This document shows, piece after piece, positions 1 through 27,292 of a stretch of DNA of 64,000 bases (its first letter is position 1; the number at the start of each line of letters is the position of its first letter). Both the position numbers and the translations under genes were made by a program. Where the stretch lies: positions 29,080,009 to 29,144,008 of the forward strand of contig NC_079230.1 of assembly GCF_029633865.1 (NCBI RefSeq), in the 5' to 3' direction. The notes beneath the pieces were generated by a model. The model did no database searches and had not been told where the DNA came from. It was given only the letters and a program-made list of their open reading frames with translations. The DNA comes from Lampris incognitus. Lineage: Eukaryota; Chordata; Actinopteri; Lampriformes; Lampridae.

Positions 1-209
1 TGCTTCCGACGTTCAACCAATCGGCGTCGAGCCCCTCCCAGCAGGTTTTCAGGGCCGCTCAGAAGTACCGACCCCAGAGCAGGGACTAGAGACGCTCCCT
101 TAAAAGTCCCAGTAAGAGTTCCGGTCAGGGGTAGTTCCTCTAGTGGAAACACCAGCAAAGCTGCCGGCCCCCTAAAAGGTTCGGGTAGTTCCGCTGGTGG
201 AAAATGGCC
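1..209 (-). mobile_element. Harbinger-like element end, cut by the window start
   Basis: The part of the terminal segment that falls at the beginning of the window. Subterminal repeats lie at 131-153 and 185-207, and the terminus GGCC at 206-209 is followed by TTA. Confidence 0.5.
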
Positions 210-229
210 TTATGAGTTGTGTTGACAGG

Positions 230-395
230 TTGCTTAACAAGGGGCGTCACTCCAGATACTGAAAGCAAAGGTTCACCTACTTTTGCCACTCACAGATGTG
301 AAATATTGGATCATTTTGCTCAATAAATGAATGAGCAAGTATCATATTTTTGTCTCATTTGTTTAATTGGGTTTTCTTCATCTACTTTTAGGACT
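230..395. mobile_element. Tc1-like transposon terminal fragment
   Basis: This stretch matches my memory of a very common teleost Tc1/mariner-family element, from its inner TTGCTTCACAAGGGG through GATACTGAAAGCAAAGG and CAGATGTGAAATATTGG to TCATCTACTTTTAGGACT. It is part of the long terminal inverted repeat plus a little inner sequence. The outermost ~75 bp and all of the transposase are absent, and it stops abruptly at the SINE. It cannot move. It is present in every unit, ending just before the SINE start. Copies 18, 19, 21-23 and 25 share an A-to-C change near 293 (unit 1 numbering). The exact family name would need a Repbase or Dfam search. Confidence 0.75.
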
Positions 396-779
396 CGTCG
401 CCGGACCGAATCCCCGTGTTACCCCCGCCTTGATTGGTGTCGCTAAAGCCACAATTGGCCGTGTGTGCGGGTGTGAAGCCGGATGTGAGTATGTGTCGAG
501 GTGGCTGCAGTAGCGCCTCCTCTGATCGGTCGGGGCGCCTGTTCGGGGGAGAGGGAGAACTGGAGGAATAGCGTGATCCTGCCACGCGCTACGTCGCCCT
601 GGCGAAACGCCTCACTGTCAGGGGAACGAAGCGGCTGGCGACTCCACATGCGTCGGAGGAGGCATGTGGTAGTCTGCAGCCCTCCCCGCAATGGCAGAGG
701 GGATGGAGCAGAAACCGGGAGGGATCGGAAGAGTGGGGTAATTGGTCCCATATAATTGGGGAGACAAAGAGGAACGAAA
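396..779 (+). mobile_element. 5'-truncated tRNA-derived teleost SINE
   Basis: The segment opens with GGACCGAATCC, which fits a polymerase III B box (GGTTCGAATCC type), so only the last part of the tRNA-like head remains. It then follows a widespread fish repeat that I recognise (GCCTCCTCTGATCGGTCGGG, GGCTGGCGACTCCACATG, GTAGTCTGCAGCCCTCCCC) and ends near GGGGAGACAAAGAGG. An 8-bp inverted repeat, CCACATGC and GCATGTGG, lies at 644-669. The A box is gone, so it should not be transcribable alone. Copies start at 396, 2770, 5144, 7518, 9892, 12266, 14640, 17013, 19387, 21761, 24135, 26509, 28883, 31257, 33631, 36004, 38377, 40750, 43123, 45496, 47869, 50242, 52615, 54988, 57361, 59734 and 62107. 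Only about four positions vary among them. Open frames inside it are chance. Confidence 0.75.
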
Positions 780-887
780 CCCCGATGATGAATTAAGGGA
801 CGCAAGATTATTAACACGCCGAATGTCGTAAAGTTTGTGTTTTCCTGCCTTAACGGGAACCATATTGTTTTTCTTTTGACATTTAAT
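780..887. other. U1 3' flank, unusually variable between copies
   Basis: Between the SINE and U1. Apart from the 3' box I see no element. About 13 positions of these 108 differ in at least one copy (for example near 791, 800, 818, 843 and 865 in unit 1 numbering), about ten times the rate in the adjacent SINE. Confidence 0.7.
867..880 (-). terminator. snRNA 3' box of U1 (copy 1; repeated in every unit)
   Basis: On the minus strand GTCAAAAGAAAAAC begins 8 nt past the last base of U1. It resembles the snRNA 3' box (GTTT, 0-3 bases, AAA, purine, two bases, AGA) that directs Integrator-dependent 3' end formation, at the usual distance of about 9-19 nt. Confidence 0.65.
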
Positions 888-1051
888 CAGGGGAGAGCGC
901 GAACGCAGTCCCCCACTACCAGAAATTATGCAGTCGAGACTCCCACGTTTGGGGAATTCGCACAGGTCAGCACAACCGGAGTGCAATGGTCAAGCCTCGC
1001 CGTGGGTGAACCACCTTCTTGATCATGGTGTCTCCCCTGCCAGGTAAGTAT
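888..1051 (-). ncRNA. RNU1: U1 snRNA gene, copy 1
   Basis: U1 is the RNA of the U1 snRNP, which recognises 5' splice sites in the nucleus by base pairing. Read on the minus strand, the gene starts ATACTTACCTG (1041-1051, pairs with the 5' splice site). The U1-70K loop GATCAAGAAG follows at 1015-1024, then the U1A loop ATTGCACTCC at 978-987, the Sm site AATTTCTGG at 919-927, and stem-loop 4 with a UUCG cap ending in CCCCTG at 888. Length is 164 nt, the same as human U1. The start and end are set by alignment to the recalled human sequence. Upstream lies a PSE-like element and downstream a 3' box, as expected for RNA polymerase II snRNA genes. This copy carries A112G (plus 940), which turns a U-A pair of stem 3 into U-G. 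Copies 3, 9, 12 and 14 share it. Confidence 0.97.
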
Positions 1052-1092
1052 GAACCCCAGCCATCGCACAGAGGAGCTGATTCTGACACACA

Positions 1093-1111
1093 TCTATCTG
1101 TATGACGGTGC
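1093..1111 (-). promoter_or_regulatory. PSE-like proximal element of U1 (copy 1; repeated in every unit)
   Basis: On the minus strand GCACCGTCATACAGATAG starts about 60 bp before U1 nucleotide 1. The position and the CACCGT core fit the proximal sequence element bound by SNAPc at RNA polymerase II snRNA genes. There is no TATA box just downstream, consistent with polymerase II and not polymerase III. Assignment rests on position and a recalled consensus. The same element lies 42-60 bp above each U1 end (for example 3467-3485, 5841-5859). Confidence 0.65.
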
Positions 1112-1179
1112 CACGGCATCAAGTAAAGCGACTGCTTTGTCCTCACAGAAATCAAGGTTTGTTTCTTTTAACATGTAAA

Positions 1180-1318
1180 CGGGGGAGAGCGCGAACGCAG
1201 TCCCCCACTACCGGAAATGATGCAGTCCAGAGTCTATAACATTTGGGGAATTGACCTTTCGCAAAGTCAGTTACCGTTGCTATGACCGTCAAGCCTTTCA
1301 GAACTATCCAGGAAGTAG
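1180..1318 (-). pseudogene. U1-like snRNA relic, copy 1
   Basis: Upstream of U1 and in the same direction lies a second, diverged U1, 139 nt long. Stem-loop 4 is near-identical to U1 (31 bases in a row at 1182-1212), and a Sm-like region, TTCCCCAAA of stem 3 and GGCTTGACGGTC of stem-loop 2 can still be aligned. The 5' end reads CTACTTCCTGG in place of ATACTTACCTGG. Stem-loop 1 is mostly lost and the U1A loop is gone. The Sm-like site is CATTTCCGG, poor for Sm binding. Flanks were duplicated too: a 3'-box-like GTTAAAAGAAACA sits 8 nt downstream (1160-1172), the same spacing as in U1, and a PSE-like TACTGTTACTTTTAAC lies at 1364-1379, about 60 bp upstream. It is either a dead tandem duplicate or a divergent U1 variant. 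Its low variability between copies favours the first. Confidence 0.8.
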
Positions 1319-2583: not shown

Positions 2584-3261
2584 TTATGAGTTGTGTTGAC
2601 AGGTTGCTTCACAAGGGGCGTCACTCCAGATACTGAAAGCAAAGGTTCACCTACTTTTGCCACTCACAGATGTGAAATATTGGATCATTTTGCTCAATAA
2701 ATGAATGAGCAAGTATCATATTTTTGTCTCATTTGTTTAATTGGGTTTTCTTCATCTACTTTTAGGACTCGTCGCCGGACCGAATCCCCGTGTTACCCCC
2801 GCCTTGATTGGTGTCGCTAAAGCCACAATTGGCCGTGTGTGCGGGTGTGAAGCCGGATGTGAGTATGTGTCGAGGTGGCTGCAGTAGCGCCTCCTCTGAT
2901 CGGTCGGGGCGCCTGTTCGGGGGAGAGGGAGAACTGGAGGAATAGCGTGATCCTGCCACGCGCTACGTCGCCCTGGCGAAACGCCTCACTGTCAGGGGAA
3001 CGAAGCGGCTGGCGACTCCACATGCGTCGGAGGAGGCATGTGGTAGTCTGCAGCCCTCCCCGCAATGGCAGAGGGGATGGAGCAGAAACCGGGAGGGATC
3101 GGAAGAGTGGGGTAATTGGTCCCATATAATTGGGGAGACAAAGAGGAACGAAACCCCGATGATGTATTAAGGGACGCAAGATTATTAACACGCCGAATGT
3201 CGTAAAGTTTGTGTTTTCCTGCCTTAACGGGAACCATACTGTTTTTCTTTTGACATTTAAT

Positions 3262-3425
3262 CAGGGGAGAGCGCGAACGCAGTCCCCCACTACCAGAAAT
3301 TATGCAGTCGAGATTCCCACGTTTGGGGAATTCGCACAGGTCAGCACAACCGGAGTGCAATGGTCAAGCCTCGCCGTGGGTGAACCACCTTCTTGATCAT
3401 GGTGTCTCCCCTGCCAGGTAAGTAT
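3262..3425 (-). ncRNA. RNU1: U1 snRNA gene, copy 2
   Basis: I see only the majority U1 sequence here, with all motifs intact. It is one of five copies (2, 7, 11, 13, 27) that look identical over the 164 nt. Two private changes lie in the 3' flank, near 3165 and 3240. Confidence 0.97.
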
Positions 3426-3553
3426 GAACCCCAGCCATCGCACAGAGGAGCTGATTCTGACACACATCTATCTGTATGACGGTGCCACGGCATCAAGTAA
3501 AGCGACTGCTTTGTCCTCACAGAAATCAAGGTTTGTTTCTTTTAACATGTAAA

Positions 3554-3692: not shown

Positions 3693-5635
3693 CCGGAAAA
3701 CACCAAAACATGAAGGAAGAAATCAGCGCATTGTGTGGTTAAAAGTAACAGTAGTAATACATTAGCTATCAATAATAGCTAGTAGCAAGCTTAGCTTGGA
3801 GCAGACAGGTATTTTTGTTGATTTTGGATGGATTAAGCTGGCCATGGGGTCTGCTATACTGTGACATCTATTGACGACATTGCGCTTCTTGCGTTCTGGG
3901 TTTCGGGAAGGGAAAGAAAATGACACCCCCTCCAAACTTTTCACATATCTAGTATCCGATCTGCAGATCCCATAGGCACACCGTTTCAGCATTTTGTTGT
4001 GTGTTTGCAAAGCTTGACGGACCGTTGCTAAGGTCGGATTGGACAAGCACCGTTCTGGGGAGGTACTTTGCGAAAGCTCAATTGAACTCGAGGCGTTCTA
4101 GAGGAGTGTAAAGTCTACCTCGACTGTACACAGTTACGGCTCCTGATCGGTCTAAAGTCTACGATGAGTGAACGCTCTTTACTAATCGGAAGCCGAAAGA
4201 GCCGATTGTAGCGTACCAGTCATAGGTCCCAGATGAGACGAGCATCAAAGCTTATCAAGAGGAAGAAGAGTGGTTTTCAAAGTTTACGGCGATGTTTGTT
4301 CTTCGATGATTCGTTTGAAGGAAAAGTGTTAGCTATAGCTATTAGCGATTTTCCATAGGAACAACTACACGAACTCACAGGCTGGCGCGAATTACAAGTG
4401 GAACTACCCCGTAGTCGCCCTGTCGAGAGTCGTGTTTCCATAGCGACGTAGGAGCCGCCGGGATCATGAGTTGACGTCAACATTTTGCGACAGCTTTCAC
4501 CGCGACGTAATTATCCCATCCAGGTGGCGGGAAATGTCGAGGTAAATCGTCTCGTTTCTCCTGGAGGACTCGAGCCCCCGCTGAACCTCGTCGGTGGCGT
4601 AGTCAGCCAACAAAGCCTGCACCTCCTCGTCTGTCCGTTTCTCGGCTGATTTCTCCATTTCGCTTGATCGAAATTAAGTTTGCTACCACACAGCTTGGTT
4701 GCTGGCTTATACAATTGCGCTTGTTGAACACCGAAGTAGAAGGCTGGTTGCTTCCGACGTTCAACCAATCGGCGTCGAGCCCCTCCCAGCAGGTTTTCAG
4801 GGCCGCTCAGAAGTACCGACCCCAGAGCAGGGACTAGAGACGCTCCCTTAAAAGTCCCAGTAAGAGTTCCGGTCAGGGGTAGTTCCTCTAGTGGAAACAC
4901 CAGCAAAGCTGCCGGCCCCCTAAAAGGTTCGGGTAGTTCCGCTGGTGGAAAATGGCCTTATGAGTTGTGTTGACAGGTTGCTTCACAAGGGGCGTCACTC
5001 CAGATACTGAAAGCAAAGGTTCACCTACTTTTGCCACTCACAGATGTGAAATATTGGATCATTTTGCTCAATAAATGAATGAGCAAGTATCATATTTTTG
5101 TCTCATTTGTTTAATTGGGTTTTCTTCATCTACTTTTAGGACTCGTCGCCGGACCGAATCCCCGTGTTACCCCCGCCTTGATTGGTGTCGCTAAAGCCAC
5201 AATTGGCCGTGTGTGCGGGTGTGAAGCCGGATGTGAGTATGTGTCGAGGTGGCTGCAGTAGCGCCTCCTCTGATCGGTCGGGGCGCCTGTTCGGGGGAGA
5301 GGGAGAACTGGAGGAATAGCGTGATCCTGCCACGCGCTACGTCGCCCTGGCGAAACGCCTCACTGTCAGGGGAACGAAGCGGCTGGCGACTCCACATGCG
5401 TCGGAGGAGGCATGTGGTAGTCTGCAGCCCTCCCCGCAATGGCAGAGGGGATGGAGCAGAAACCGGGAGGGATCGGAAGAGTGGGGTAATTGGTCCCATA
5501 TAATTGGGGAGACAAAGAGGAACGAAACCCCGATGATGAATTAAGGGACGCAAGATTATTAACACGCCGAATGTCGTAAAGTTTGTGTTTTCCTGCCTTA
5601 ACGGGAACCATATTGTTTTTCTTTTGACATTTAAT

Positions 5636-5799
5636 CAGGGGAGAGCGCGAACGCAGTCCCCCACTACCAGAAATTATGCAGTCGAGACTCCCACGTTTGG
5701 GGAATTCGCACAGGTCAGCACAACCGGAGTGCAATGGTCAAGCCTCGCCGTGGGTGAACCACCTTCTTGATCATGGTGTCTCCCCTGCCAGGTAAGTAT
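5636..5799 (-). ncRNA. RNU1: U1 snRNA gene, copy 3
   Basis: Carries A112G (stem 3 wobble). The 5' flank has a GAGTCTG variant near 5829 that only copy 5 shares, part of the two-unit pattern. Confidence 0.96.
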
Positions 5800-5927
5800 G
5801 AACCCCAGCCATCGCACAGAGGAGCTGAGTCTGACACACATCTATCTGTATGACGGTGCCACGGCATCAAGTAAAGCGACTGCTTTGTCCTCACAGAAAT
5901 CAAGGTTTGTTTCTTTTAACATGTAAA

Positions 5928-6066: not shown

Positions 6067-8009
6067 CCGGAAAACACCAAAACATGAAGGAAGAAATCAG
6101 CGCATTGTGTGGTTAAAAGTAACAGTAGTAATACATTAGCTATCAATAATAGCTAGTAGCAAGCTTAGCTTGGAGCAGACAGGTATTTTTGTTGATTTTG
6201 GATGGATTAAGCTGGCCATGGGGTCTGCTATACTGTGACATCTATTGACGACATTGCGCTTCTTGCGTTCTGGGTTTCGGGAAGGGAAAGAAAATGACAC
6301 CCCCTCCAAACTTTTCACATATCTAGTATCCGATCTGCAGATCCCATAGGCACACCGTTTCAGCATTTTGTTGTGTGTTTGCAAAGCTTGACGGACCGTT
6401 GCTAAGGTCGGATTGGACAAGCACCGTTCTGGGGAGGTACTTTGCGAAAGCTCAATTGAACTCGAGGCGTTCTAGAGGAGTGTAAAGTCTACCTCGACTG
6501 TACACAGTTACGGCTCCTGATCGGTCTAAAGTCTACGGTGAGTGAACGCTCTAGACTAATCGGAAGCCGAAAGAGCCGATTGTAGCGTACCAGTCATAGG
6601 TCCCAGATGAGACGAGCATCAAAGCTTATCAAGAGGAAGAAGAGTGGTTTTCAAAGTTTACGGCGATGTTTGTTCTTCGATGATTCGTTTGAAGGAAAAG
6701 TGTTAGCTATAGCTATTAGCGATTTTCCATAGGAACAACTACACGAACTCACAGGCTGGCGCGAATTACAAGTGGAACTACCCCGTAGTCGCCCTGTCGA
6801 GAGTCGTGTTTCCATAGCGACGTAGGAACCGCCGGGATCATGAGTTGACGTCAGCATTTTGCGACAGCTTTCACCGCGACGTAATTATCCCATCCAGGTG
6901 GCGGGAAATGTCGAGGTAAATCGTCTCGTTTCTCCTGGAGGACTCGAGCCCCCGCTGAACCTCGTCGGTGGCGTAGTCAGCCAACAAAGCCTGCACCTCC
7001 TCGTCTGTCCGTTTCTCGGCTGATTTCTCCATTTCGCTTGATCGAAATTAAGTTTGCTACCACACAGCTTGGTTGCTGGCTTATACAATTGCGCTTGTTG
7101 AACACCGAAGTAGAAGGCTGGTTGCTTCCGACGTTCAACCAATCGGCGTCGAGCCCCTCCCAGCAGGTTTTCAGGGCCGCTCAGAAGTACCGACCCCAGA
7201 GCAGGGACTAGAGACGCTCCCTTAAAAGTCCCAGTAAGAGTTCCGGTCAGGGGTAGTTCCTCTAGTGGAAACACCAGCAAAGCTGCCGGCCCCCTAAAAG
7301 GTTCGGGTAGTTCCGCTGGTGGAAAATGGCCTTATGAGTTGTGTTGACAGGTTGCTTCACAAGGGGCGTCACTCCAGATACTGAAAGCAAAGGTTCACCT
7401 ACTTTTGCCACTCACAGATGTGAAATATTGGATCATTTTGCTCAATAAATGAATGAGCAAGTATCATATTTTTGTCTCATTTGTTTAATTGGGTTTTCTT
7501 CATCTACTTTTAGGACTCGTCGCCGGACCGAATCCCCGTGTTACCCCCGCCTTGATTGGTGTCGCTAAAGCCACAATTGGCCGTGTGTGCGGGTGTGAAG
7601 CCGGATGTGAGTATGTGTCGAGGTGGCTGCAGTAGCGCCTCCTCTGATCGGTCGGGGCGCCTGTTCGGGGGAGAGGGAGAACTGGAGGAATAGCGTGATC
7701 CTGCCACGCGCTACGTCGCCCTGGCGAAACGCCTCACTGTCAGGGGAACGAAGCGGCTGGCGACTCCACATGCGTCGGAGGAGGCATGTGGTAGTCTGCA
7801 GCCCTCCCCGCAATGGCAGAGGGGATGGAGCAGAAACCGGGAGGGATCGGAAGAGTGGGGTAATTGGTCCCATATAATTGGGGAGACAAAGAGGAACGAA
7901 ACCCCGATGATGAATTAAGGGACGCAAGATTATTAACACGCCGAATGTCGTAAAGTTTGTGTTTTCCTGCCTTAACGGGAACCATATTGTTTTTCTTTTG
8001 ACATTTAAT

Positions 8010-8173
8010 CAGGAGAGAGCGCGAACGCAGTCCCCCACTACCAGAAATTATGCAGTCGAGATTCCCACGTTTGGGGAATTCGCACAGGTCAGCACAACCG
8101 GAGTGCAATGGTCAAGCCTCGCCGTGGGTGAACCACCTTCTTGATCATGGTGTCTCCCCTGCCAGGTAAGTAT
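8010..8173 (-). ncRNA. RNU1: U1 snRNA gene, copy 4
   Basis: Carries C160U (plus 8014), changing a G-C pair of stem-loop 4 into G-U. Only copy 6, two units away, shares it. Confidence 0.96.
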
Positions 8174-8301
8174 GAACCCCAGCCATCGCACAGAGGAGCT
8201 GATTCTGACACACATCTATCTGTATGACGGTGCCACGGCATCAAGTAAAGCGACTGCTTTGTCCTCACAGAAATCAAGGTTTGTTTCTTTTAACATGTAA
8301 A

Positions 8302-8440: not shown

Positions 8441-10383
8441 CCGGAAAACACCAAAACATGAAGGAAGAAATCAGCGCATTGTGTGGTTAAAAGTAACAGT
8501 AGTAATACATTAGCTATCAATAATAGCTAGTAGCAAGCTTAGCTTGGAGCAGACAGGTATTTTTGTTGATTTTGGATGGATTAAGCTGGCCATGGGGTCT
8601 GCTATACTGTGACATCTATTGACGACATTGCGCTTCTTGCGTTCTGGGTTTCGGGAAGGGAAAGAAAATGACACCCCCTCCAAACTTTTCACATATCTAG
8701 TATCCGATCTGCAGATCCCATAGGCACACCGTTTCAGCATTTTGTTGTGTGTTTGCAAAGCTTGACGGACCGTTGCTAAGGTCGGATTGGACAAGCACCG
8801 TTCTGGGGAGGTACTTTGCGAAAGCTCAATTGAACTCGAGGCGTTCTAGAGGAGTGTAAAGTCTACCTCGACTGTACACAGTTACGGCTCCTGATCGGTC
8901 TAAAGTCTACGGTGAGTGAACGCTCTTTACTAATCGGAAGCCGAAAGAGCCGATTGTAGCGTACCAGTCATAGGTCCCAGATGAGACGAGCATCAAAGCT
9001 TATCAAGAGGAAGAAGAGTGGTTTTCAAAGTTTACGGCGATGTTTGTTCTTCGATGATTCGTTTGAAGGAAAAGTGTTAGCTATAGCTATTAGCGATTTT
9101 CCATAGGAACAACTACACGAACTCACAGGCTGGCGCGAATTACAAGTGGAACTACCCCGTAGTCGCCCTGTCGAGAGTCGTGTTTCCATAGCGACGTAGG
9201 AACCGCCGGGATCATGAGTTGACGTCAGCATTTTGCGACAGCTTTCACCGCGACGTAATTATCCCATCCAGGTGGCGGGAAATGTCGAGGTAAATCGTCT
9301 CGTTTCTCCTGGAGGACTCGAGCCCCCGCTGAACCTCGTCGGTGGCGTAGTCAGCCAACAAAGCCTGCACCTCCTCGTCTGTCCGTTTCTCGGCTGATTT
9401 CTCCATTTCGCTTGATCGAAATTAAGTTTGCTACCACACAGCTTGGTTGCTGGCTTATACAATTGCGCTTGTTGAACACCGAAGTAGAAGGCTGGTTGCT
9501 TCCGACGTTCAACCAATCGGCGTCGAGCCCCTCCCAGCAGGTTTTCAGGGCCGCTCAGAAGTACCGACCCCAGAGCAGGGACTAGAGACGCTCCCTTAAA
9601 AGTCCCAGTAAGAGTTCCGGTCAGGGGTAGTTCCTCTAGTGGAAACACCAGCAAAGCTGCCGGCCCCCTAAAAGGTTCGGGTAGTTCCGCTGGTGGAAAA
9701 TGGCCTTATGAGTTGTGTTGACAGGTTGCTTCACAAGGGGCGTCACTCCAGATACTGAAAGCAAAGGTTCACCTACTTTTGCCACTCACAGATGTGAAAT
9801 ATTGGATCATTTTGCTCAATAAATGAATGAGCAAGTATCATATTTTTGTCTCATTTGTTTAATTGGGTTTTCTTCATCTACTTTTAGGACTCGTCGCCGG
9901 ACCGAATCCCCGTGTTACCCCCGCCTTGATTGGTGTCGCTAAAGCCACAATTGGCCGTGTGTGCGGGTGTGAAGCCGGATGTGAGTATGTGTCGAGGTGG
10001 CTGCAGTAGCGCCTCCTCTGATCGGTCGGGGCGCCTGTTCGGGGGAGAGGGAGAACTGGAGGAATAGCGTGATCCTGCCACGCGCTACGTCGCCCTGGCG
10101 AAACGCCTCACTGTCAGGGGAACGAAGCGGCTGGCGACTCCACATGCGTCGGAGGAGGCATGTGGTAGTCTGCAGCCCTCCCCGCAATGGCAGAGGGGAT
10201 GGAGCAGAAACCGGGAGGGATCGGAAGAGTGGGGTAATTGGTCCCATATAATTGGGGAGACAAAGAGGAACGAAACCCCGATGATGAATTAAGGGACGCA
10301 AGATTATTAACACGCCGAATGTCGGAAAGTTTGTGTTTTCCTGCCTTAACGGGAACCATATTGTTTTTCTTTTGACATTTAAT

Positions 10384-10547
10384 CAGGGGAGAGCGCGAAC
10401 GCAGTCCCCCACTACCAGAAATTATGCAGTCGAGATTCCCACGTTTGGGGAACTCGCACAGGTCAGCACAACCGGAGTGCAATGGTCAAGCCTCGCCGTG
10501 GGTGAACCACCTTCTTGATCATGGTGTCTCCCCTGCCAGGTAAGTAT
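10384..10547 (-). ncRNA. RNU1: U1 snRNA gene, copy 5
   Basis: Carries A95G (plus 10453), which keeps a wobble pair at the base of stem 3. Its 5' flank matches copy 3. Confidence 0.96.
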
Positions 10548-10675
10548 GAACCCCAGCCATCGCACAGAGGAGCTGAGTCTGACACACATCTATCTGTATG
10601 ACGGTGCCACGGCATCAAGTAAAGCGACTGCTTTGTCCTCACAGAAATCAAGGTTTGTTTCTTTTAACATGTAAA

Positions 10676-10814: not shown

Positions 10815-12757
10815 CCGGAAAACACCAAAACATGAAGGAAGAAATCAGCGCATTGTGTGGTTAAAAGTAACAGTAGTAATACATTAGCTATCAATAATAG
10901 CTAGTAGCAAGCTTAGCTTGGAGCAGACAGGTATTTTTGTTGATTTTGGATGGATTAAGCTGGCCATGGGGTCTGCTATACTGTGACATCTATTGACGAC
11001 ATTGCGCTTCTTGCGTTCTGGGTTTCGGGAAGGGAAAGAAAATGACACCCCCTCCAAACTTTTCACATATCTAGTATCCGATCTGCAGATCCCATAGGCA
11101 CACCGTTTCAGCATTTTGTTGTGTGTTTGCAAAGCTTGACGGACCGTTGCTAAGGTCGGATTGGACAAGCACCGTTCTGGGGAGGTACTTTGCGAAAGCT
11201 CAATTGAACTCGAGGCGTTCTAGAGGAGTGTAAAGTCTACCTCGACTGTACACAGTTACGGCTCCTGATCGGTCTAAAGTCTACGGTGAGTGAACGCTCT
11301 AGACTAATCGGAAGCCGAAAGAGCCGATTGTAGCGTACCAGTCATAGGTCCCAGATGAGACGAGCATCAAAGCTTATCAAGAGGAAGAAGAGTGGTTTTC
11401 AAAGTTTACGGCGATGTTTGTTCTTCGATGATTCGTTTGAAGGAAAAGTGTTAGCTATAGCTATTAGCGATTTTCCATAGGAACAACTACACGAACTCAC
11501 AGGCTGGCGCGAATTACAAGTGGAACTACCCCGTAGTCGCCCTGTCGAGAGTCGTGTTTCCATAGCGACGTAGGAACCGCCGGGATCATGAGTTGACGTC
11601 AGCATTTTGCGACAGCTTTCACCGCGACGTAATTATCCCATCCAGGTGGCGGGAAATGTCGAGGTAAATCGTCTCGTTTCTCCTGGAGGACTCGAGCCCC
11701 CGCTGAACCTCGTCGGTGGCGTAGTCAGCCAACAAAGCCTGCACCTCCTCGTCTGTCCGTTTCTCGGCTGATTTCTCCATTTCGCTTGATCGAAATTAAG
11801 TTTGCTACCACACAGCTTGGTTGCTGGCTTATACAATTGCGCTTGTTGAACACCGAAGTAGAAGGCTGGTTGCTTCCGACGTTCAACCAATCGGCGTCGA
11901 GCCCCTCCCAGCAGGTTTTCAGGGCCGCTCAGAAGTACCGACCCCAGAGCAGGGACTAGAGACGCTCCCTTAAAAGTCCCAGTAAGAGTTCCGGTCAGGG
12001 GTAGTTCCTCTAGTGGAAACACCAGCAAAGCTGCCGGCCCCCTAAAAGGTTCGGGTAGTTCCGCTGGTGGAAAATGGCCTTATGAGTTGTGTTGACAGGT
12101 TGCTTCACAAGGGGCGTCACTCCAGATACTGAAAGCAAAGGTTCACCTACTTTTGCCACTCACAGATGTGAAATATTGGATCATTTTGCTCAATAAATGA
12201 ATGAGCAAGTATCATATTTTTGTCTCATTTGTTTAATTGGGTTTTCTTCATCTACTTTTAGGACTCGTCGCCGGACCGAATCCCCGTGTTACCCCCGCCT
12301 TGATTGGTGTCGCTAAAGCCACAATTGGCCGTGTGTGCGGGTGTGAAGCCGGATGTGAGTATGTGTCGAGGTGGCTGCAGTAGCGCCTCCTCTGATCGGT
12401 CGGGGCGCCTGTTCGGGGGAGAGGGAGAACTGGAGGAATAGCGTGATCCTGCCACGCGCTACGTCGCCCTGGCGAAACGCCTCACTGTCAGGGGAACGAA
12501 GCGGCTGGCGACTCCACATGCGTCGGAGGAGGCATGTGGTAGTCTGCAGCCCTCCCCGCAATGGCAGAGGGGATGGAGCAGAAACCGGGAGGGATCGGAA
12601 GAGTGGGGTAATTGGTCCCATATAATTGGGGAGACAAAGAGGAACGAAACCCCGATGATGAATTAAGGGACGCAAGATTATTAACACGCCGAATGTCGTA
12701 AAGTTTGTGTTTTCCTGCCTTAACGGGAACCATATTGTTTTTCTTTTGACATTTAAT

Positions 12758-12921
12758 CAGGAGAGAGCGCGAACGCAGTCCCCCACTACCAGAAATTATG
12801 CAGTCGAGATTCCCACGTTTGGGGAATTCGCACAGGTCAGCACAACCGGAGTGCAATGGTCAAGCCTCGCCGTGGGTGAACCACCTTCTTGATCATGGTG
12901 TCTCCCCTGCCAGGTAAGTAT
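12758..12921 (-). ncRNA. RNU1: U1 snRNA gene, copy 6
   Basis: Carries C160U (plus 12762), as in copy 4. Other motifs are intact. Confidence 0.96.
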
Positions 12922-13049
12922 GAACCCCAGCCATCGCACAGAGGAGCTGATTCTGACACACATCTATCTGTATGACGGTGCCACGGCATCAAGTAAAGCG
13001 ACTGCTTTGTCCTCACAGAAATCAAGGTTTGTTTCTTTTAACATGTAAA

Positions 13050-13188: not shown

Positions 13189-15131
13189 CCGGAAAACACC
13201 AAAACATGAAGGAAGAAATCAGCGCATTGTGTGGTTAAAAGTAACAGTAGTAATACATTAGCTATCAATAATAGCTAGTAGCAAGCTTAGCTTGGAGCAG
13301 ACAGGTATTTTTGTTGATTTTGGATGGATTAAGCTGGCCATGGGGTCTGCTATACTGTGACATCTATTGACGACATTGCGCTTCTTGCGTTCTGGGTTTC
13401 GGGAAGGGAAAGAAAATGACACCCCCTCCAAACTTTTCACATATCTAGTATCCGATCTGCAGATCCCATAGGCACACCGTTTCAGCATTTTGTTGTGTGT
13501 TTGCAAAGCTTGACGGACCGTTGCTAAGGTCGGATTGGACAAGCACCGTTCTGGGGAGGTACTTTGCGAAAGCTCAATTGAACTCGAGGCGTTCTAGAGG
13601 AGTGTAAAGTCTACCTCGACTGTACACAGTTACGGCTCCTGATCGGTCTAAAGTCTACGGTGAGTGAACGCTCTTTACTAATCGGAAGCCGAAAGAGCCG
13701 ATTGTAGCGTACCAGTCATAGGTCCCAGATGAGACGAGCATCAAAGCTTATCAAGAGGAAGAAGAGTGGTTTTCAAAGTTTACGGCGATGTTTGTTCTTC
13801 GATGATTCGTTTGAAGGAAAAGTGTTAGCTATAGCTATTAGCGATTTTCCATAGGAACAACTACACGAACTCACAGGCTGGCGCGAATTACAAGTGGAAC
13901 TACCCCGTAGTCGCCCTGTCGAGAGTCGTGTTTCCATAGCGACGTAGGAACCGCCGGGATCATGAGTTGACGTCAGCATTTTGCGACAGCTTTCACCGCG
14001 ACGTAATTATCCCATCCAGGTGGCGGGAAATGTCGAGGTAAATCGTCTCGTTTCTCCTGGAGGACTCGAGCCCCCGCTGAACCTCGTCGGTGGCGTAGTC
14101 AGCCAACAAAGCCTGCACCTCCTCGTCTGTCCGTTTCTCGGCTGATTTCTCCATTTCGCTTGATCGAAATTAAGTTTGCTACCACACAGCTTGGTTGCTG
14201 GCTTATACAATTGCGCTTGTTGAACACCGAAGTAGAAGGCTGGTTGCTTCCGACGTTCAACCAATCGGCGTCGAGCCCCTCCCAGCAGGTTTTCAGGGCC
14301 GCTCAGAAGTACCGACCCCAGAGCAGGGACTAGAGACGCTCCCTTAAAAGTCCCAGTAAGAGTTCCGGTCAGGGGTAGTTCCTCTAGTGGAAACACCAGC
14401 AAAGCTGCCGGCCCCCTAAAAGGTTCGGGTAGTTCCGCTGGTGGAAAATGGCCTTATGAGTTGTGTTGACAGGTTGCTTCACAAGGGGCGTCACTCCAGA
14501 TACTGAAAGCAAAGGTTCACCTACTTTTGCCACTCACAGATGTGAAATATTGGATCATTTTGCTCAATAAATGAATGAGCAAGTATCATATTTTTGTCTC
14601 ATTTGTTTAATTGGGTTTTCTTCATCTACTTTTAGGACTCGTCGCCGGACCGAATCCCCGTGTTACCCCCGCCTTGATTGGTGTCGCTAAAGCCACAATT
14701 GGCCGTGTGTGCGGGTGTGAAGCCGGATGTGAGTATGTGTCGAGGTGGCTGCAGTAGCGCCTCCTCTGATCGGTCGGGGCGCCTGTTCGGGGGAGAGGGA
14801 GAACTGGAGGAATAGCGTGATCCTGCCACGCGCTACGTCGCCCTGGCGAAACGCCTCACTGTCAGGGGAACGAAGCGGCTGGCGACTCCACATGCGTCGG
14901 AGGAGGCATGTGGTAGTCTGCAGCCCTCCCCGCAATGGCAGAGGGGATGGAGCAGAAACCGGGAGGGATCGGAAGAGTGGGGTAATTGGTCCCATATAAT
15001 TGGGGAGACAAAGAGGAACGAAACCCCGATGATGAATTAAGGGACGCAAGATTATTAACACGCCGAATGTCGTAAAGTTTGTGTTTTCCTGCCTTAACGG
15101 GAACCATATTGTTTTTCTTTTGACATTTAAT

Positions 15132-15295
15132 CAGGGGAGAGCGCGAACGCAGTCCCCCACTACCAGAAATTATGCAGTCGAGATTCCCACGTTTGGGGAA
15201 TTCGCACAGGTCAGCACAACCGGAGTGCAATGGTCAAGCCTCGCCGTGGGTGAACCACCTTCTTGATCATGGTGTCTCCCCTGCCAGGTAAGTAT
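15132..15295 (-). ncRNA. RNU1: U1 snRNA gene, copy 7
   Basis: Majority sequence. The unit is the first to lack one base in the THAP-side spacer, so the next copy is 2,373 bp away. Confidence 0.97.
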
Positions 15296-15423
15296 GAACC
15301 CCAGCCATCGCACAGAGGAGCTGATTCTGACACACATCTATCTGTATGACGGTGCCACGGCATCAAGTAAAGCGACTGCTTTGTCCTCACAGAAATCAAG
15401 GTTTGTTTCTTTTAACATGTAAA

Positions 15424-15562: not shown

Positions 15563-17504
15563 CCGGAAAACACCAAAACATGAAGGAAGAAATCATCGCA
15601 TTGTGTGGTTAAAAGTAACAGTAGTAATACATTAGCTATCAATAATAGCTAGTAGCAAGCTTAGCTTGGAGCAGACAGGTATTTTTGTTGATTTTGGATG
15701 GATTAAGCTGGCCATGGGGTCTGCTATACTGTGACATCTATTGACGACATTGCGCTTCTTGCGTTCTGGGTTTCGGGAAGGGAAAGAAAATGACACCCCC
15801 TCCAAACTTTTCACATATCTAGTATCCGATCTGCAGATCCCATAGGCACACCGTTTCAGCATTTTGTTGTGTGTTTGAAAGCTTGACGGACCGTTGCTAA
15901 GGTCGGATTGGACAAGCACCGTTCTGGGGAGGTACTTTGCGAAAGCTCAATTGAACTCGAGGCGTTCTAGAGGAGTGTAAAGTCTACCTCGACTGTACAC
16001 AGTTACGGCTCCTGATCGGTCTAAAGTCTACGGTGAGTGAACGCTCTTTACTAATCGGAAGCCGAAAGAGCCGATTGTAGCGTACCAGTCATAGGTCCCA
16101 GATGAGACGAGCATCAAAGCTTATCAAGAGGAAGAAGAGTGGTTTTCAAAGTTTACGGCGATGTTTGTTCTTCGATGATTCGTTTGAAGGAAAAGTGTTA
16201 GCTATAGCTATTAGCGATTTTCCATAGGAACAACTACACGAACTCACAGGCTGGCGCGAATTACAAGTGGAACTACCCCGTAGTCGCCCTGTCGAGAGTC
16301 GTGTTTCCATAGCGACGTAGGAGCCGCCGGGATCATGAGTTGACGTCAACATTTTGCGACAGCTTTCACCGCGACGTAATTATCCCATCCAGGTGGCGGG
16401 AAATGTCGAGGTAAATCGTCTCGTTTCTCCTGGAGGACTCGAGCCCCCGCTGAACCTCGTCGGTGGCGTAGTCAGCCAACAAAGCCTGCACCTCCTCGTC
16501 TGTCCGTTTCTCGGCTGATTTCTCCATTTCGCTTGATCGAAATTAAGTTTGCTACCACACAGCTTGGTTGCTGGCTTATACAATTGCGCTTGTTGAACAC
16601 CGAAGTAGAAGGCTGGTTGCTTCCGACGTTCAACCAATCGGCGTCGAGCCCCTCCCAGCAGGTTTTCAGGGCCGCTCAGAAGTACCGACCCCAGAGCAGG
16701 GACTAGAGACGCTCCCTTAAAAGTCCCAGTAAGAGTTCCGGTCAGGGGTAGTTCCTCTAGTGGAAACACCAGCAAAGCTGCCGGCCCCCTAAAAGGTTCG
16801 GGTAGTTCCGCTGGTGGAAAATGGCCTTATGAGTTGTGTTGACAGGTTGCTTCACAAGGGGCGTCACTCCAGATACTGAAAGCAAAGGTTCACCTACTTT
16901 TGCCACTCACAGATGTGAAATATTGGATCATTTTGCTCAATAAATGAATGAGCAAGTATCATATTTTTGTCTCATTTGTTTAATTGGGTTTTCTTCATCT
17001 ACTTTTAGGACTCGTCGCCGGACCGAATCCCCGTGTTACCCCCGCCTTGATTGGTGTCGCTAAAGCCACAATTGGCCGTGTGTGCGGGTGTGAAGCCGGA
17101 TGTGAGTATGTGTCGAGGTGGCTGCAGTAGCGCCTCCTCTGATCGGTCGGGGCGCCTGTTCGGGGGAGAGGGAGAACTGGAGGAATAGCGTGATCCTGCC
17201 ACGCGCTACGTCGCCCTGGCGAAACGCCTCACTGTCAGGGGAACGAAGCGGCTGGCGACTCCACATGCGTCGGAGGAGGCATGTGGTAGTCTGCAGCCCT
17301 CCCCGCAATGGCAGAGGGGATGGAGCAGAAACCGGGAGGGATCGGAAGAGTGGGGTAATTGGTCCCATATAATTGGGGAGACAAAGAGGAACGAAACCCC
17401 GATGATGAATTAAGGGGCGCAAGATTATTAACACGCCGAATGTCGTAAAGTTTGTGTTTTCCTGCCTTAACGGGAACCATATTGTTTTTCTTTTGACATT
17501 TAAT

Positions 17505-17668
17505 CAGGGGAGAGCGCGAACGCAGTCCCCCACTACCAGAAATTATGCAGTCGAGATTCCCACGTTTGGGGAATTCGCACAGGTCAGCACAACCGGAGTG
17601 CAATGGTCAAACCTCGCCGTGGGTGAACCACCTTCTTGATCATGGTGTCTCCCCTGCCAGGTAAGTAT
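17505..17668 (-). ncRNA. RNU1: U1 snRNA gene, copy 8
   Basis: Carries C58U (plus 17611) near the start of stem-loop 2. Copy 9 next door shares it, together with a GACCTG variant in the 5' flank. Confidence 0.96.
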
Positions 17669-17796
17669 GAACCCCAGCCATCGCACAGAGGACCTGATTC
17701 TGACACACATCTATCTGTATGACGGTGCCACGGCATCAAGTAAAGCGACTGCTTTGTCCTCACAGAAATCAAGGTTTGTTTCTTTTAACATGTAAA

Positions 17797-17935: not shown

Positions 17936-19878
17936 CCGGAAAACACCAAAACATGAAGGAAGAAATCAGCGCATTGTGTGGTTAAAAGTAACAGTAGTAA
18001 TACATTAGCTATCAATAATAGCTAGTAGCAAGCTTAGCTTGGAGCAGACAGGTATTTTTGTTGATTTTGGATGGATTAAGCTGGCCATGGGGTCTGCTAT
18101 ACTGTGACATCTATTGACGACATTGCGCTTCTTGCGTTCTGGGTTTCGGGAAGGGAAAGAAAATGACACCCCCTCCAAACTTTTCACATATCTAGTATCC
18201 GATCTGCAGATCCCATAGGCACACCGTTTCAGCATTTTGTTGTGTGTTTGCAAAGCTTGACGGACCGTTGCTAAGGTCGGATTGGACAAGCACCGTTCTG
18301 GGGAGGTACTTTGCGAAAGCTCAATTGAACTCGAGGCGTTCTAGAGGAGTGTAAAGTCTACCTCGACTGTACACAGTTACGGCTCCTGATCGGTCTAAAG
18401 TCTACGGTGAGTGAACGCTCTTTACTAATCGGAAGCCGAAAGAGCCGATTGTAGCGTACCAGTCATAGGTCCCAGATGAGACGAGCATCAAAGCTTATCA
18501 AGAGGAAGAAGAGTGGTTTTCAAAGTTTACGGCGATGTTTGTTCTTCGATGATTCGTTTGAAGGAAAAGTGTTAGCTATAGCTATTAGCGATTTTCCATA
18601 GGAACAACTACACGAACTCACAGGCTGGCGCGAATTACAAGTGGAACTACCCCGTAGTCGCCCTGTCGAGAGTCGTGTTTCCATAGCGACGTAGGAACCG
18701 CCGGGATCATGAGTTGACGTCAGCATTTTGCGACAGCTTTCACCGCGACGTAATTATCCCATCCAGGTGGCGGGAAATGTCGAGGTAAATCGTCTCGTTT
18801 CTCCTGGAGGACTCGAGCCCCCGCTGAACCTCGTCGGTGGCGTAGTCAGCCAACAAAGCCTGCACCTCCTCGTCTGTCCGTTTCTCGGCTGATTTCTCCA
18901 TTTCGCTTGATCGAAATTAAGTTTGCTACCACACAGCTTGGTTGCTGGCTTATACAATTGCGCTTGTTGAACACCGAAGTAGAAGGCTGGTTGCTTCCGA
19001 CGTTCAACCAATCGGCGTCGAGCCCCTCCCAGCAGGTTTTCAGGGCCGCTCAGAAGTACCGACCCCAGAGCAGGGACTAGAGACGCTCCCTTAAAAGTCC
19101 CAGTAAGAGTTCCGGTCAGGGGTAGTTCCTCTAGTGGAAACACCAGCAAAGCTGCCGGCCCCCTAAAAGGTTCGGGTAGTTCCGCTGGTGGAAAATGGCC
19201 TTATGAGTTGTGTTGACAGGTTGCTTCACAAGGGGCGTCACTCCAGATACTGAAAGCAAAGGTTCACCTACTTTTGCCACTCACAGATGTGAAATATTGG
19301 ATCATTTTGCTCAATAAATGAATGAGCAAGTATCATATTTTTGTCTCATTTGTTTAATTGGGTTTTCTTCATCTACTTTTAGGACTCGTCGCCGGACCGA
19401 ATCCCCGTGTTACCCCCGCCTTGATTGGTGTCGCTAAAGCCACAATTGGCCGTGTGTGCGGGTGTGAAGCCGGATGTGAGTATGTGTCGAGGTGGCTGCA
19501 GTAGCGCCTCCTCTGATCGGTCGGGGCGCCTGTTCGGGGGAGAGGGAGAACTGGAGGAATAGCGTGATCCTGCCACGCGCTACGTCGCCCTGGCGAAACG
19601 CCTCACTGTCAGGGGAACGAAGCGGCTGGCGACTCCACATGCGTCGGAGGAGGCATGTGGTAGTCTGCAGCCCTCCCCGCAATGGCAGAGGGGATGGAGC
19701 AGAAACCGGGAGGGATCGGAAGAGTGGGGTAATTGGTCCCATATAATTGGGGAGACAAAGAGGAACGAAATCCCGATGATGAATTAAGGGACGCAAGATT
19801 ATTAACACGCCGAATGTCGTAAAGTTTGTGTTTTCCTGCCTTAACGGGAACCATATTGTTTTTCTTTTGACATTTAAT

Positions 19879-20042
19879 CAGGGGAGAGCGCGAACGCAGT
19901 CCCCCACAACCAGAAATTATGCAGTCGAGACTCCCACGTTTGGGGAATTCGCACAGGTCAGCACAACCGGAGTGCAATGGTCAAACCTCGCCGTGGGTGA
20001 ACCACCTTCTTGATCATGGTGTCTCCCCTGCCAGGTAAGTAT
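19879..20042 (-). ncRNA. RNU1: U1 snRNA gene, copy 9
   Basis: Carries C58U (plus 19985), A112G (19931) and a private A135U (19908) just after the Sm site. The Sm site itself is intact. Confidence 0.95.
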
Positions 20043-20170
20043 GAACCCCAGCCATCGCACAGAGGACCTGATTCTGACACACATCTATCTGTATGACGGT
20101 GCCACGGCATCAAGTAAAGCGACTGCTTTGTCCTCACAGAAATCAAGGTTTGTTTCTTTTAACATGTAAA

Positions 20171-20309: not shown

Positions 20310-22252
20310 CCGGAAAACACCAAAACATGAAGGAAGAAATCAGCGCATTGTGTGGTTAAAAGTAACAGTAGTAATACATTAGCTATCAATAATAGCTAGT
20401 AGCAAGCTTAGCTTGGAGCAGACAGGTATTTTTGTTGATTTTGGATGGATTAAGCTGGCCATGGGGTCTGCTATACTGTGACATCTATTGACGACATTGC
20501 GCTTCTTGCGTTCTGGGTTTCGGGAAGGGAAAGAAAATGACACCCCCTCCAAACTTTTCACATATCTAGTATCCGATCTGCAGATCCCATAGGCACACCG
20601 TTTCAGCATTTTGTTGTGTGTTTGCAAAGCTTGACGGACCGTTGCTAAGGTCGGATTGGACAAGCACCGTTCTGGGGAGGTACTTTGCGAAAGCTCAATT
20701 GAACTCGAGGCGTTCTAGAGGAGTGTAAAGTCTACCTCGACTGTACACAGTTACGGCTCCTGATCGGTCTAAAGTCTACGGTGAGTGAACGCTCTTTACT
20801 AATCGGAAGCCGAAAGAGCCGATTGTAGCGTACCAGTCATAGGTCCCAGATGAGACGAGCATCAAAGCTTATCAAGAGGAAGAAGAGTGGTTTTCAAAGT
20901 TTACGGCGATGTTTGTTCTTCGATGATTCGTTTGAAGGAAAAGTGTTAGCTATAGCTATTAGCGATTTTCCATAGGAACAACTACACGAACTCACAGGCT
21001 GGCGCGAATTACAAGTGGAACTACCCCGTAGTCGCCCTGTCGAGAGTCGTGTTTCCATAGCGACGTAGGAACCGCCGGGATCATGAGTTGACGTCAGCAT
21101 TTTCCGACAGCTTTCACCGCGACGTAATTATCCCATCCAGGTGGCGGGAAATGTCGAGGTAAATCGTCTCGTTTCTCCTGGAGGACTCGAGCCCCCGCTG
21201 AACCTCGTCGGTGGCGTAGTCAGCCAACAAAGCCTGCACCTCCTCGTCTGTCCGTTTCTCGGCTGATTTCTCCATTTCGCTTGATCGAAATTAAGTTTGC
21301 TACCACACAGCTTGGTTGCTGGCTTATACAATTGCGCTTGTTGAACACCGAAGTAGAAGGCTGGTTGCTTCCGACGTTCAACCAATCGGCGTCGAGCCCC
21401 TCCCAGCAGGTTTTCAGGGCCGCTCAGAAGTACCGACCCCAGAGCAGGGACTAGAGACGCTCCCTTAAAAGTCCCAGTAAGAGTTCCGGTCAGGGGTAGT
21501 TCCTCTAGTGGAAACACCAGCAAAGCTGCCGGCCCCCTAAAAGGTTCGGGTAGTTCCGCTGGTGGAAAATGGCCTTATGAGTTGTGTTGACAGGTTGCTT
21601 CACAAGGGGCGTCACTCCAGATACTGAAAGCAAAGGTTCACCTACTTTTGCCACTCACAGATGTGAAATATTGGATCATTTTGCTCAATAAATGAATGAG
21701 CAAGTATCATATTTTTGTCTCATTTGTTTAATTGGGTTTTCTTCATCTACTTTTAGGACTCGTCGCCGGACCGAATCCCCGTGTTACCCCCGCCTTGATT
21801 GGTGTCGCTAAAGCCACAATTGGCCGTGTGTGCGGGTGTGAAGCCGGATGTGAGTATGTGTCGAGGTGGCTGCAGTAGCGCCTCCTCTGATCGGTCGGGG
21901 CGCCTGTTCGGGGGAGAGGGAGAACTGGAGGAATAGCGTGATCCTGCCACGCGCTACGTCGCCCTGGCGAAACGCCTCACTGTCAGGGGAACGAAGCGGC
22001 TGGCGACTCCACATGCGTCGGAGGAGGCATGTGGTAGTCTGCAGCCCTCCCCGCAATGGCAGAGGGGATGGAGCAGAAACCGGGAGGGATCGGGAGAGTG
22101 GGGTAATTGGTCCCATATAATTGGGGAGACAAAGAGGAACGAAATCCCGATGATGAATTAAGGGACGCAAGATTATTAACACGCCGAATGTCGTAAAGTT
22201 TGTGTTTTCCTGCCTTAACGGGAACCATATTGTTTTTCTTTTGACATTTAAT

Positions 22253-22416
22253 CAGGGGAGAGCGCGAACGCAGTCCCCCACTACCAGAAATTATGCAGTC
22301 GAGATTCCCACGTTTGGGGAATTCGCACAGGTCAGCACAACCGGAGTGCAATGGTCAAGCCTCGCCGTGGGTGAACCACCTTCTTGATCATGGTGTCTCT
22401 CCTGCCAGGTAAGTAT
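22253..22416 (-). ncRNA. RNU1: U1 snRNA gene, copy 10
   Basis: Carries G17A (plus 22400) in the 5' strand of stem-loop 1. It is the only G-to-A change seen among the 27 copies. Confidence 0.95.
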
Positions 22417-22544
22417 GAACCCCAGCCATCGCACAGAGGAGCTGATTCTGACACACATCTATCTGTATGACGGTGCCACGGCATCAAGTAAAGCGACTGC
22501 TTTGTCCTCACAGAAATCAAGGTTTGTTTCTTTTAACATGTAAA

Positions 22545-22683: not shown

Positions 22684-24626
22684 CCGGAAAACACCAAAAC
22701 ATGAAGGAAGAAATCAGCGCATTGTGTGGTTAAAAGTAACAGTAGTAATACATTAGCTATCAATAATAGCTAGTAGCAAGCTTAGCTTGGAGCAGACAGG
22801 TATTTTTGTTGATTTTGGATGGATTAAGCTGGCCATGGGGTCTGCTATACTGTGACATCTATTGACGACATTGCGCTTCTTGCGTTCTGGGTTTCGGGAA
22901 GGGAAAGAAAATGACACCCCCTCCAAACTTTTCACATATCTAGTATCCGATCTGCAGATCCCATAGGCACACCGTTTCAGCATTTTGTTGTGTGTTTGCA
23001 AAGCTTGACGGACCGTTGCTAAGGTCGGATTGGACAAGCACCGTTCTGGGGAGGTACTTTGCGAAAGCTCAATTGAACTCGAGGCGTTCTAGAGGAGTGT
23101 AAAGTCTACCTCGACTGTACACAGTTACGGCTCCTGATCGGTCTAAAGTCTACGGTGAGTGAACGCTCTAGACTAATCGGAAGCCGAAAGAGCCGATTGT
23201 AGCGTACCAGTCATAGGTCCCAGATGAGACGAGCATCAAAGCTTATCAAGAGGAAGAAGAGTGGTTTTCAAAGTTTACGGCGATGTTTGTTCTTCGATGA
23301 TTCGTTTGAAGGAAAAGTGTTAGCTATAGCTATTAGCGATTTTCCATGGGAACAACTACACGAACTCACAGGCTGGCGCGAATTACAAGTGGAACTACCC
23401 CGTAGTCGCCCTGTCGAGAGTCGTGTTTCCATAGCGACGTAGGAGCCGCCGGGATCATGAGTTGACGTCAACATTTTGCGACAGCTTTCACCGCGACGTA
23501 ATTATCCCATCCAGGTGGCGGGAAATGTCGAGGTAAATCGTCTCGTTTCTCCTGGAGGACTCGAGCCCCCGCTGAACCTCGTCGGTGGCGTAGTCAGCCA
23601 ACAAAGCCTGCACCTCCTCGTCTGTCCGTTTCTCGGCTGATTTCTCCATTTCGCTTGATCGAAATTAAGTTTGCTACCACACAGCTTGGTTGCTGGCTTA
23701 TACAATTGCGCTTGTTGAACACCGAAGTAGAAGGCTGGTTGCTTCCGACGTTCAACCAATCGGCGTCGAGCCCCTCCCAGCAGGTTTTCAGGGCCGCTCA
23801 GAAGTACCGACCCCAGAGCAGGGACTAGAGACGCTCCCTTAAAAGTCCCAGTAAGAGTTCCGGTCAGGGGTAGTTCCTCTAGTGGAAACACCAGCAAAGC
23901 TGCCGGCCCCCTAAAAGGTTCGGGTAGTTCCGCTGGTGGAAAATGGCCTTATGAGTTGTGTTGACAGGTTGCTTCACAAGGGGCGTCACTCCAGATACTG
24001 AAAGCAAAGGTTCACCTACTTTTGCCACTCACAGATGTGAAATATTGGATCATTTTGCTCAATAAATGAATGAGCAAGTATCATATTTTTGTCTCATTTG
24101 TTTAATTGGGTTTTCTTCATCTACTTTTAGGACTCGTCGCCGGACCGAATCCCCGTGTTACCCCCGCCTTGATTGGTGTCGCTAAAGCCACAATTGGCCG
24201 TGTGTGCGGGTGTGAAGCCGGATGTGAGTATGTGTCGAGGTGGCTGCAGTAGCGCCTCCTCTGATCGGTCGGGGCGCCTGTTCGGGGGAGAGGGAGAACT
24301 GGAGGAATAGCGTGATCCTGCCACGCGCTACGTCGCCCTGGCGAAACGCCTCACTGTCAGGGGAACGAAGCGGCTGGCGACTCCACATGCGTCGGAGGAG
24401 GCATGTGGTAGTCTGCAGCCCTCCCCGCAATGGCAGAGGGGATGGAGCAGAAACCGGGAGGGATCGGAAGAGTGGGGTAATTGGTCCCATATAATTGGGG
24501 AGACAAAGAGGAACGAAACCCCGATGATGAATTAAGGGACGCAAGATTATTAACACGCCGAATGTCGTAAAGTTTGTGTTTTCCTGCCTTAACGGGAACC
24601 ATATTGTTTTTCTTTTGACATTTAAT

Positions 24627-24790
24627 CAGGGGAGAGCGCGAACGCAGTCCCCCACTACCAGAAATTATGCAGTCGAGATTCCCACGTTTGGGGAATTCGC
24701 ACAGGTCAGCACAACCGGAGTGCAATGGTCAAGCCTCGCCGTGGGTGAACCACCTTCTTGATCATGGTGTCTCCCCTGCCAGGTAAGTAT
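24627..24790 (-). ncRNA. RNU1: U1 snRNA gene, copy 11
   Basis: Majority sequence; I see no changes in the 164 nt. Confidence 0.97.
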
Positions 24791-24918
24791 GAACCCCAGC
24801 CATCGCACAGAGGAGCTGATTCTGACACACATCTATCTGTATGACGGTGCCACGGCATCAAGTAAAGCGACTGCTTTGTCCTCACAGAAATCAAGGTTTG
24901 TTTCTTTTAACATGTAAA

Positions 24919-27164: not shown

Positions 27165-27292
27165 GAACCCCAGCCATCGCACAGAGGAGCTGATTCTGAC
27201 ACACATCTATCTGTATGACGGTGCCACGGCATCAAGTAAAGCGACTGCTTTGTCCTCACAGAAATCAAGGTTTGTTTCTTTTAACATGTAAA

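Follow-up and report, generated by a model that had tools for sequence, protein, structure and literature searches.

The hypermutability of human snRNA and tRNA genes was reportedly described by Seplyarskiy in 2023 and by Thornlow in 2018. Human snRNA genes are called hypermutable in two reports (PMC11338827, PMC13083260), and the second of them gives an excess of new mutation of up to tenfold in short, very active human RNA genes. A germline hotspot at human transcription start sites reaches several hundred bp to either side of the start and is reported to be absent from de novo data (PMC12658150), which implies that such excesses need not be germline transcription. Human R-loop regions are described as carrying an excess of de novo variants (PMC12165836). 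On zebrafish chromosome 4, maternal U1 and U6 genes are present in large numbers, and oocytes transcribe them (PMC11075544). Our literature search, which ran mostly without subscription literature, returned no paper on gene-centred diversity inside snRNA arrays, and this is weak evidence of absence.

The gene is usually the least variable part of a repeat, whereas in the U1 array of the fish Lampris incognitus it is the most variable one, and our analysis confirms that the gene-centred hypervariable zone of this array is real. As on zebrafish chromosome 4, many snRNA genes are found together in a fish, oocyte transcription being a feature of the zebrafish genes.

The U1 array and its units

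The window, that is, the whole stretch of 64,000 nucleotides that was analysed, lies at 29.080-29.144 Mb on the 37.6-Mb contig NC_079230.1 of a 1.48-Gb genome. It is part of a tandem U1 array with at least 117 units, which starts near 28.937 Mb and still has units at 29.214 Mb. The 27 U1 genes of the window (Rfam) are all on the minus strand with a spacing of 2,373-2,374 bp, and each of the 27 gives a full-length match (positions 1-166) to the U1 covariance model RF00003, with 147.3-162.4 bits at a cut-off of 69.5. A tandem-repeat scan with a longest period of 500 bp found nothing. Positions below are those of the window, whose first unit serves for description.

780..887, minus strand: unit 1, hypervariable U1 3' flank, 108 bp past the mature 3' end; 31 events over 117 units
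888..1051, minus strand: unit 1, U1 snRNA gene, first base of the RNA at 1051; RF00003 161.3 bits; 49 events in 164 bp over 117 units
1036..1051, minus strand: unit 1, U1 bases 1-16 including the 5' splice-site pairing bases; 0 variants in 117 units
1052..1091, minus strand: unit 1, hypervariable 5' flank; 12 events in 40 bp, 10 of them in 1052-1076
1080..1114, minus strand: unit 1, presumed PSE promoter element; block aligned with dispersed U1 genes, at the upstream edge of the zone
1180..1318, minus strand: unit 1, U1-like relic, low-variation control; 6 events in 139 bp over 117 units
3154..3465, minus strand: zone of unit 2, U1 at 3262-3425
5528..5839, minus strand: zone of unit 3, U1 at 5636-5799
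7902..8213, minus strand: zone of unit 4, U1 at 8010-8173
10276..10587, minus strand: zone of unit 5, U1 at 10384-10547
12650..12961, minus strand: zone of unit 6, U1 at 12758-12921
15024..15335, minus strand: zone of unit 7, U1 at 15132-15295
17397..17708, minus strand: zone of unit 8, U1 at 17505-17668
19771..20082, minus strand: zone of unit 9, U1 at 19879-20042
22145..22456, minus strand: zone of unit 10, U1 at 22253-22416
24519..24830, minus strand: zone of unit 11, U1 at 24627-24790
26893..27204, minus strand: zone of unit 12, U1 at 27001-27164
29267..29578, minus strand: zone of unit 13, U1 at 29375-29538
31641..31952, minus strand: zone of unit 14, U1 at 31749-31912
34015..34326, minus strand: zone of unit 15, U1 at 34123-34286
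36388..36699, minus strand: zone of unit 16, U1 at 36496-36659
38761..39072, minus strand: zone of unit 17, U1 at 38869-39032
41134..41445, minus strand: zone of unit 18, U1 at 41242-41405
43507..43818, minus strand: zone of unit 19, U1 at 43615-43778
45880..46191, minus strand: zone of unit 20, U1 at 45988-46151
48253..48564, minus strand: zone of unit 21, U1 at 48361-48524
50626..50937, minus strand: zone of unit 22, U1 at 50734-50897
52999..53310, minus strand: zone of unit 23, U1 at 53107-53270
55372..55683, minus strand: zone of unit 24, U1 at 55480-55643
57745..58056, minus strand: zone of unit 25, U1 at 57853-58016
60118..60429, minus strand: zone of unit 26, U1 at 60226-60389
62491..62802, minus strand: zone of unit 27, U1 at 62599-62762

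The sample of 117 units joins the 27 window units to 90 from the same contig. The last unit is partial (1,108 bp) and covers the zone; it was counted among the 117 and left out of the 89 complete units outside the window, which are the set unseen by the original prediction. An event is a substitution, counted once per site and derived base. Indel columns, such as that of a one-base indel at 1634, were left out of the counts, as were bases that the reference unit lacks, such as an extra stretch in unit 31. The limits of the presumed SINE (384-767) and of the relic (1180-1318) were set to the lengths given in the original prediction.

Three further features of the units were observed. Window units 1-6 and 8-14 have the one-base C at 1634 of unit 1, whereas unit 7 and units 15-27 lack it, which points to array domains. 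An insert of about 320 bp sits next to the presumed SINE in array unit 31 (about 29.0089 Mb), at unit positions 361-384, and those 24 bp are repeated at both ends of the insert in the manner of a target-site duplication. Additionally, diversity peaks a second time at 1779-1951 of unit 1, some 730-900 bp upstream of U1, owing mainly to a few high-frequency variants.

Substitution excess in the U1 and U2 arrays

Across the 27 aligned window units we found 74 variable substitution sites, and the counts of the original prediction were reproduced: 22 of 164 sites in U1, 13 of 108 in the 3' flank, 5 of 40 in the 5' flank, 4 of 384 in the SINE interval and 2 of 139 in the relic, with 28 of 1,539 (1.8%) in the remainder, for which about 2% had been claimed. 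The full alignment of the 117 units likewise shows an uneven variant density along the unit. It holds 223 substitution events, 107 of them singletons; of the 2,374 bp of the unit, the 312 bp of 780-1091 contain 92 events and the remaining 2,062 bp contain 131, a 4.6-fold excess (95% CI 3.5-6.1, binomial p = 2e-25; this and the other p-values assume independence and are too small, since singletons cluster by unit and the events are thus not fully independent). Singletons alone give the same 4.6-fold value (44 of 107 in the zone, CI 3.1-6.9, p = 7e-13), and 2,000 uniform permutations never placed more than 54 events in a 312-bp window, where the data reach 93. In agreement, the 89 units outside the window have 70 of 186 events in 780-1090, a 4.0-fold excess (p = 3e-17) that is 3.6-fold for singletons. 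In mean pairwise diversity, U1 reaches 0.0115, its 3' flank 0.0126 and the 40 bp before the start 0.0195, while the other two parts of the unit stand at 0.0031 and 0.0054. Third alleles occur at 8 sites inside the zone versus 2 outside, the zone being about one seventh of the length. The quiet SINE of the original prediction did not survive the larger sample: the 4 variable sites of 384 hold for the window, but over 117 units the interval has 25 events in 384 bp (0.065 per bp), equal to the remaining 100 in 1,539 (0.065), so the value of about 1% was a small-sample low.

The clustering of singletons by unit exceeds chance both inside the zone (variance/mean 1.78) and outside it (1.66). Units 21, 22, 75, 80 and 116 of the 117 carry 3-4 zone singletons each, for which multi-base mutation events are a possible reason.

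A two-rate fit places the best segment at 791-1083, with 2-lnL support of 694-798 for the start and 1076-1091 for the end. In RNA numbering, the segment opens 31 bases ahead of the start and closes at base 261, which lies about 97 bases beyond the mature 3' end. The profile is sharp on the upstream side, where successive 25-bp windows from the start contain 10 events, then 2, then at most 1 in each of six more, and it fades gradually downstream, with 11, 6, 6, 4, 3, 3, 3, 2 and 1 events per 25 bp from base 201. Further upstream, the stretch 1084-1251, which includes the presumed promoter, has 4 events versus 10.7 expected (p = 0.019). The upstream edge adjoins a block common to the dispersed U1 genes elsewhere on the contig, and this block (1080..1114) is presumed to be the PSE. 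The zone had been described as centred on the transcribed stretch and fading about 110 bp past the 3' box; the downstream fade stands, with the fitted end at the position given above, but the upstream edge is sharp.

Within U1, bases 17-164 match the 3' flank in variability (49 events in 148 bp vs 31 in 108, p = 0.61), hence single U1 copies look weakly constrained. Bases 1-16 are invariant in 117 units, with p = 0.004 when the run end is chosen after inspection, a value that is too good because the clean run was noticed before testing. With limits fixed by known function, the p-value is 0.026 for bases 1-11 and 0.07 for the core 3-10, and the longest invariant runs inside U1 are not longer than chance (p = 0.20). 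These values suggest purifying selection on the 5' splice-site arm that is at most faint. In this sense, the original view that the diversity runs contrary to purifying selection holds for the body past base 16, while the clean bases 1-16 may be a trace of it. U1 would then be diverse because mutation input seems high and purifying selection is at most faint. The U1 body equals the consensus in 45 of the 117 units, and 41 haplotypes occur.

The usual Sm site is AUUUGUGG. The presumed Sm site of U1 (919-929 in unit 1) reads AUUUCUGG in the array and in the dispersed U1 genes, and several single copies have variants within it.

A U2 tandem array on another contig (20.01-20.25 Mb, L036-L039, minus strand, period about 2.24 kb), with roughly 107-115 candidate copies as judged by spacer pieces, repeats the U1 pattern over RNA body and 3' flank, in a different gene and spacer. 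Four of its units, spread along the array and picked by position among the 46 best-scored U2 matches, have 16 of 31 variable sites within the zone as defined from U1 (2.9-fold, p = 0.0034). Five 192-bp pieces of the four-unit majority sequence were searched against the genome and the best 40 of 107-144 candidates were scored, so that the true contrast between U2 body and spacer may be larger or smaller than the counts that follow. Among these best 40 matches, exact copies number 40 of 40 for each of the pieces -370..-179, -216..-25 and 320..511, and 4 of 40 for the 3' flank (193..384). The U2 body (1..192) is exact in 0 of the best 40 of 144 candidates, some of which may be U2 copies outside the array; its query has one tied site (base 174) that can cost one mismatch, and by bit scores at least 34 of the 40 have more than one. 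In both snRNA arrays, U1 and U2, substitutions are thus locally in excess over the RNA and its 3' flank, the rare ones as well as all taken together.

A second U1 cluster, with irregular spacing and on the opposite strand, lies on the contig of the U1 array at 10.44-10.50 Mb (L001-L008). The U1 bodies of these eight best-scored loci are identical and their 5' flanks related, and their 3' flanks are mostly unrelated from just past the 3' end. As a further test the dispersed genes were set aside, the 3' flanks being mostly unalignable with L006/L007 as the only close pair. In this pair the U1 body is identical and differences rise near U1; it was not used as evidence since it differs still more farther downstream.

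Candidate causes of the excess

As far as can be judged from sequence, the zone probably marks where transcription has raised germline mutation over a Pol II snRNA gene that is repeated in tandem. Heavy germline transcription, perhaps in oocytes, would leave the stretch open, unwound and stalled, and lesions and error-prone repair would build up from the start of melting to a fading termination zone. The turnover of units would keep the whole array young, letting a difference in mutation input show as an excess at the gene, and with more than 100 copies present, selection would let most changes in any one of them pass. The transcribed stretch would extend beyond U1 itself. Transcription is favoured because the zone tracks the transcript and fades where termination is expected, and also because maternal U1 genes of zebrafish are active in oocytes, human snRNA genes are reported to be hypermutable and human R-loop regions have an excess of de novo variants. 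This explanation, already put forward in the original prediction, gains from the U2 array, which has the same zone, and from the relic. The latter had been proposed as a built-in control, its silence being assumed, and it serves as one: in the best-aligned part it is identical to U1 at 50 of 57 sites, and of the 50 sites that are identical among 60 aligned ones, 16 are variable in U1 and 1 in the relic (discordant-pair p = 3e-4), which indicates that sequence content does not explain the zone.

The spectrum of changes is broad. All 12 change types are raised inside the zone, 1.6- to 7.5-fold, so there is no single-lesion signature, and the transition to transversion ratio is 55:37 inside vs 64:67 outside (p = 0.13). 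No strand asymmetry is significant in the zone over 117 units (C>T 20 vs G>A 14, p = 0.23; A>G 13 vs T>C 8, p = 0.28), hence location, not signature, is what points to transcription. A C>T excess among the singletons of 104 units (11 vs 3) lost significance over all events in 117 units. CpG decay was rejected, with 8 events at 32 CpG sites vs 84 at the 280 other sites inside the zone. AID/APOBEC-type deamination was rejected as well, since coding-strand C>T follows G 6, C 5, T 5 and A 4 times with no preferred 5' base; on the other strand the preceding base is C 5, A 4, G 4 and T 1 times, and the numbers are small on both strands. For GC-biased conversion, W>S and S>W variants have no significant difference in copy number, and it was rejected.

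The main rival is that an open, nucleosome-free or break-prone stretch is mutated through exposure or breakage and not through transcription. Open chromatin of this kind predicts much the same as transcription does, either exposure or breakage would give a broad spectrum without significant strand asymmetry, and the human start-site hotspots are reported to be tied to stalling and mitotic breaks (PMC12658150). However, the zone is one-sided: it extends from about -31 across the full length of the RNA and dies away some 100-240 bases beyond the 3' end, and the upstream stretch with the presumed promoter is low in events (4 vs 10.7 expected, p = 0.019). We therefore consider exposure or breakage on its own an improbable cause, though the most serious of the competitors.

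The remaining causes, like CpG decay, fit poorly. An even mutation rate with slower homogenisation in and around U1 would also raise diversity within a bounded zone, but it predicts older, commoner variants inside, where those in more than 10 copies are 4 of 92 versus 16 of 131 outside (p = 0.056), and the excess is the same for singletons as for all events; this makes it very unlikely. Slightly less credit is due to gene conversion as the source of variants, with diverged U1 copies or the relic as donors. The 3-4 singletons clustered in a few units would suit it, as would the relic-specific bases seen as array variants at 2 of 10 sites. Against it, none of the 5 bases that mark the dispersed U1 genes (eight genes compared, with identical U1) is seen in the array, and the 3' flanks of those genes are unrelated, yet the 3' flank in the array is as variable as U1, so that conversion from the U1 relatives tested is a poor source. 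Least probable of all are read or assembly errors concentrated in U1, for although long arrays are hard to assemble and singletons are known from the assembly alone, variants in two copies lie at most 3 units apart in 14 of 22 cases inside the zone and 16 of 25 outside, vs 5% of random pairs, and were thus duplicated along with their units, the changes are mostly substitutions with few indels, and the near-identical relic is unaffected.

With transcription-associated mutation as the preferred reading, a wider proposal may be put forward tentatively, and we would sooner doubt it than rely on it: germline-type snRNA arrays of Lampris might mutate themselves, with mutation raised about fivefold by transcription over exactly the Pol II footprint, which would be why no more than 45 of 117 U1 bodies still have the consensus, and a large copy number and fast turnover would keep the U1 pool usable. 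If so, the array would serve as a base-by-base record of how fast individual Pol II transcription units mutate in the germline.

Comparison with known systems

The hypermutability of snRNA genes is known in humans, where it is medically important, and the array extends it to another animal and adds an unusually clean internal control. Given that spacer, U1 near-copy and gene are present in every unit, together with the zone in U2, such arrays could map germline Pol II mutation finely, from one assembly and without pedigrees. They also raise the question of how the genome tolerates an essential RNA pool in which most array copies are off consensus.

Compared with the human start-site hotspot, the array shares an inherited excess tied to Pol II activity, which is inferred here, but its zone lies mainly downstream, over the transcript and its 3' flank. 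There is also a likeness to the human snRNA and tRNA genes, as both are short RNA genes with an excess of new mutation, very active in the human case and presumably so in Lampris. The human evidence comes from de novo and population variants in people, whereas that from Lampris comes from variants between the units of one array, and, unlike the human reports, they come with internal tests, namely the U1 near-copy that every unit carries and a second array.
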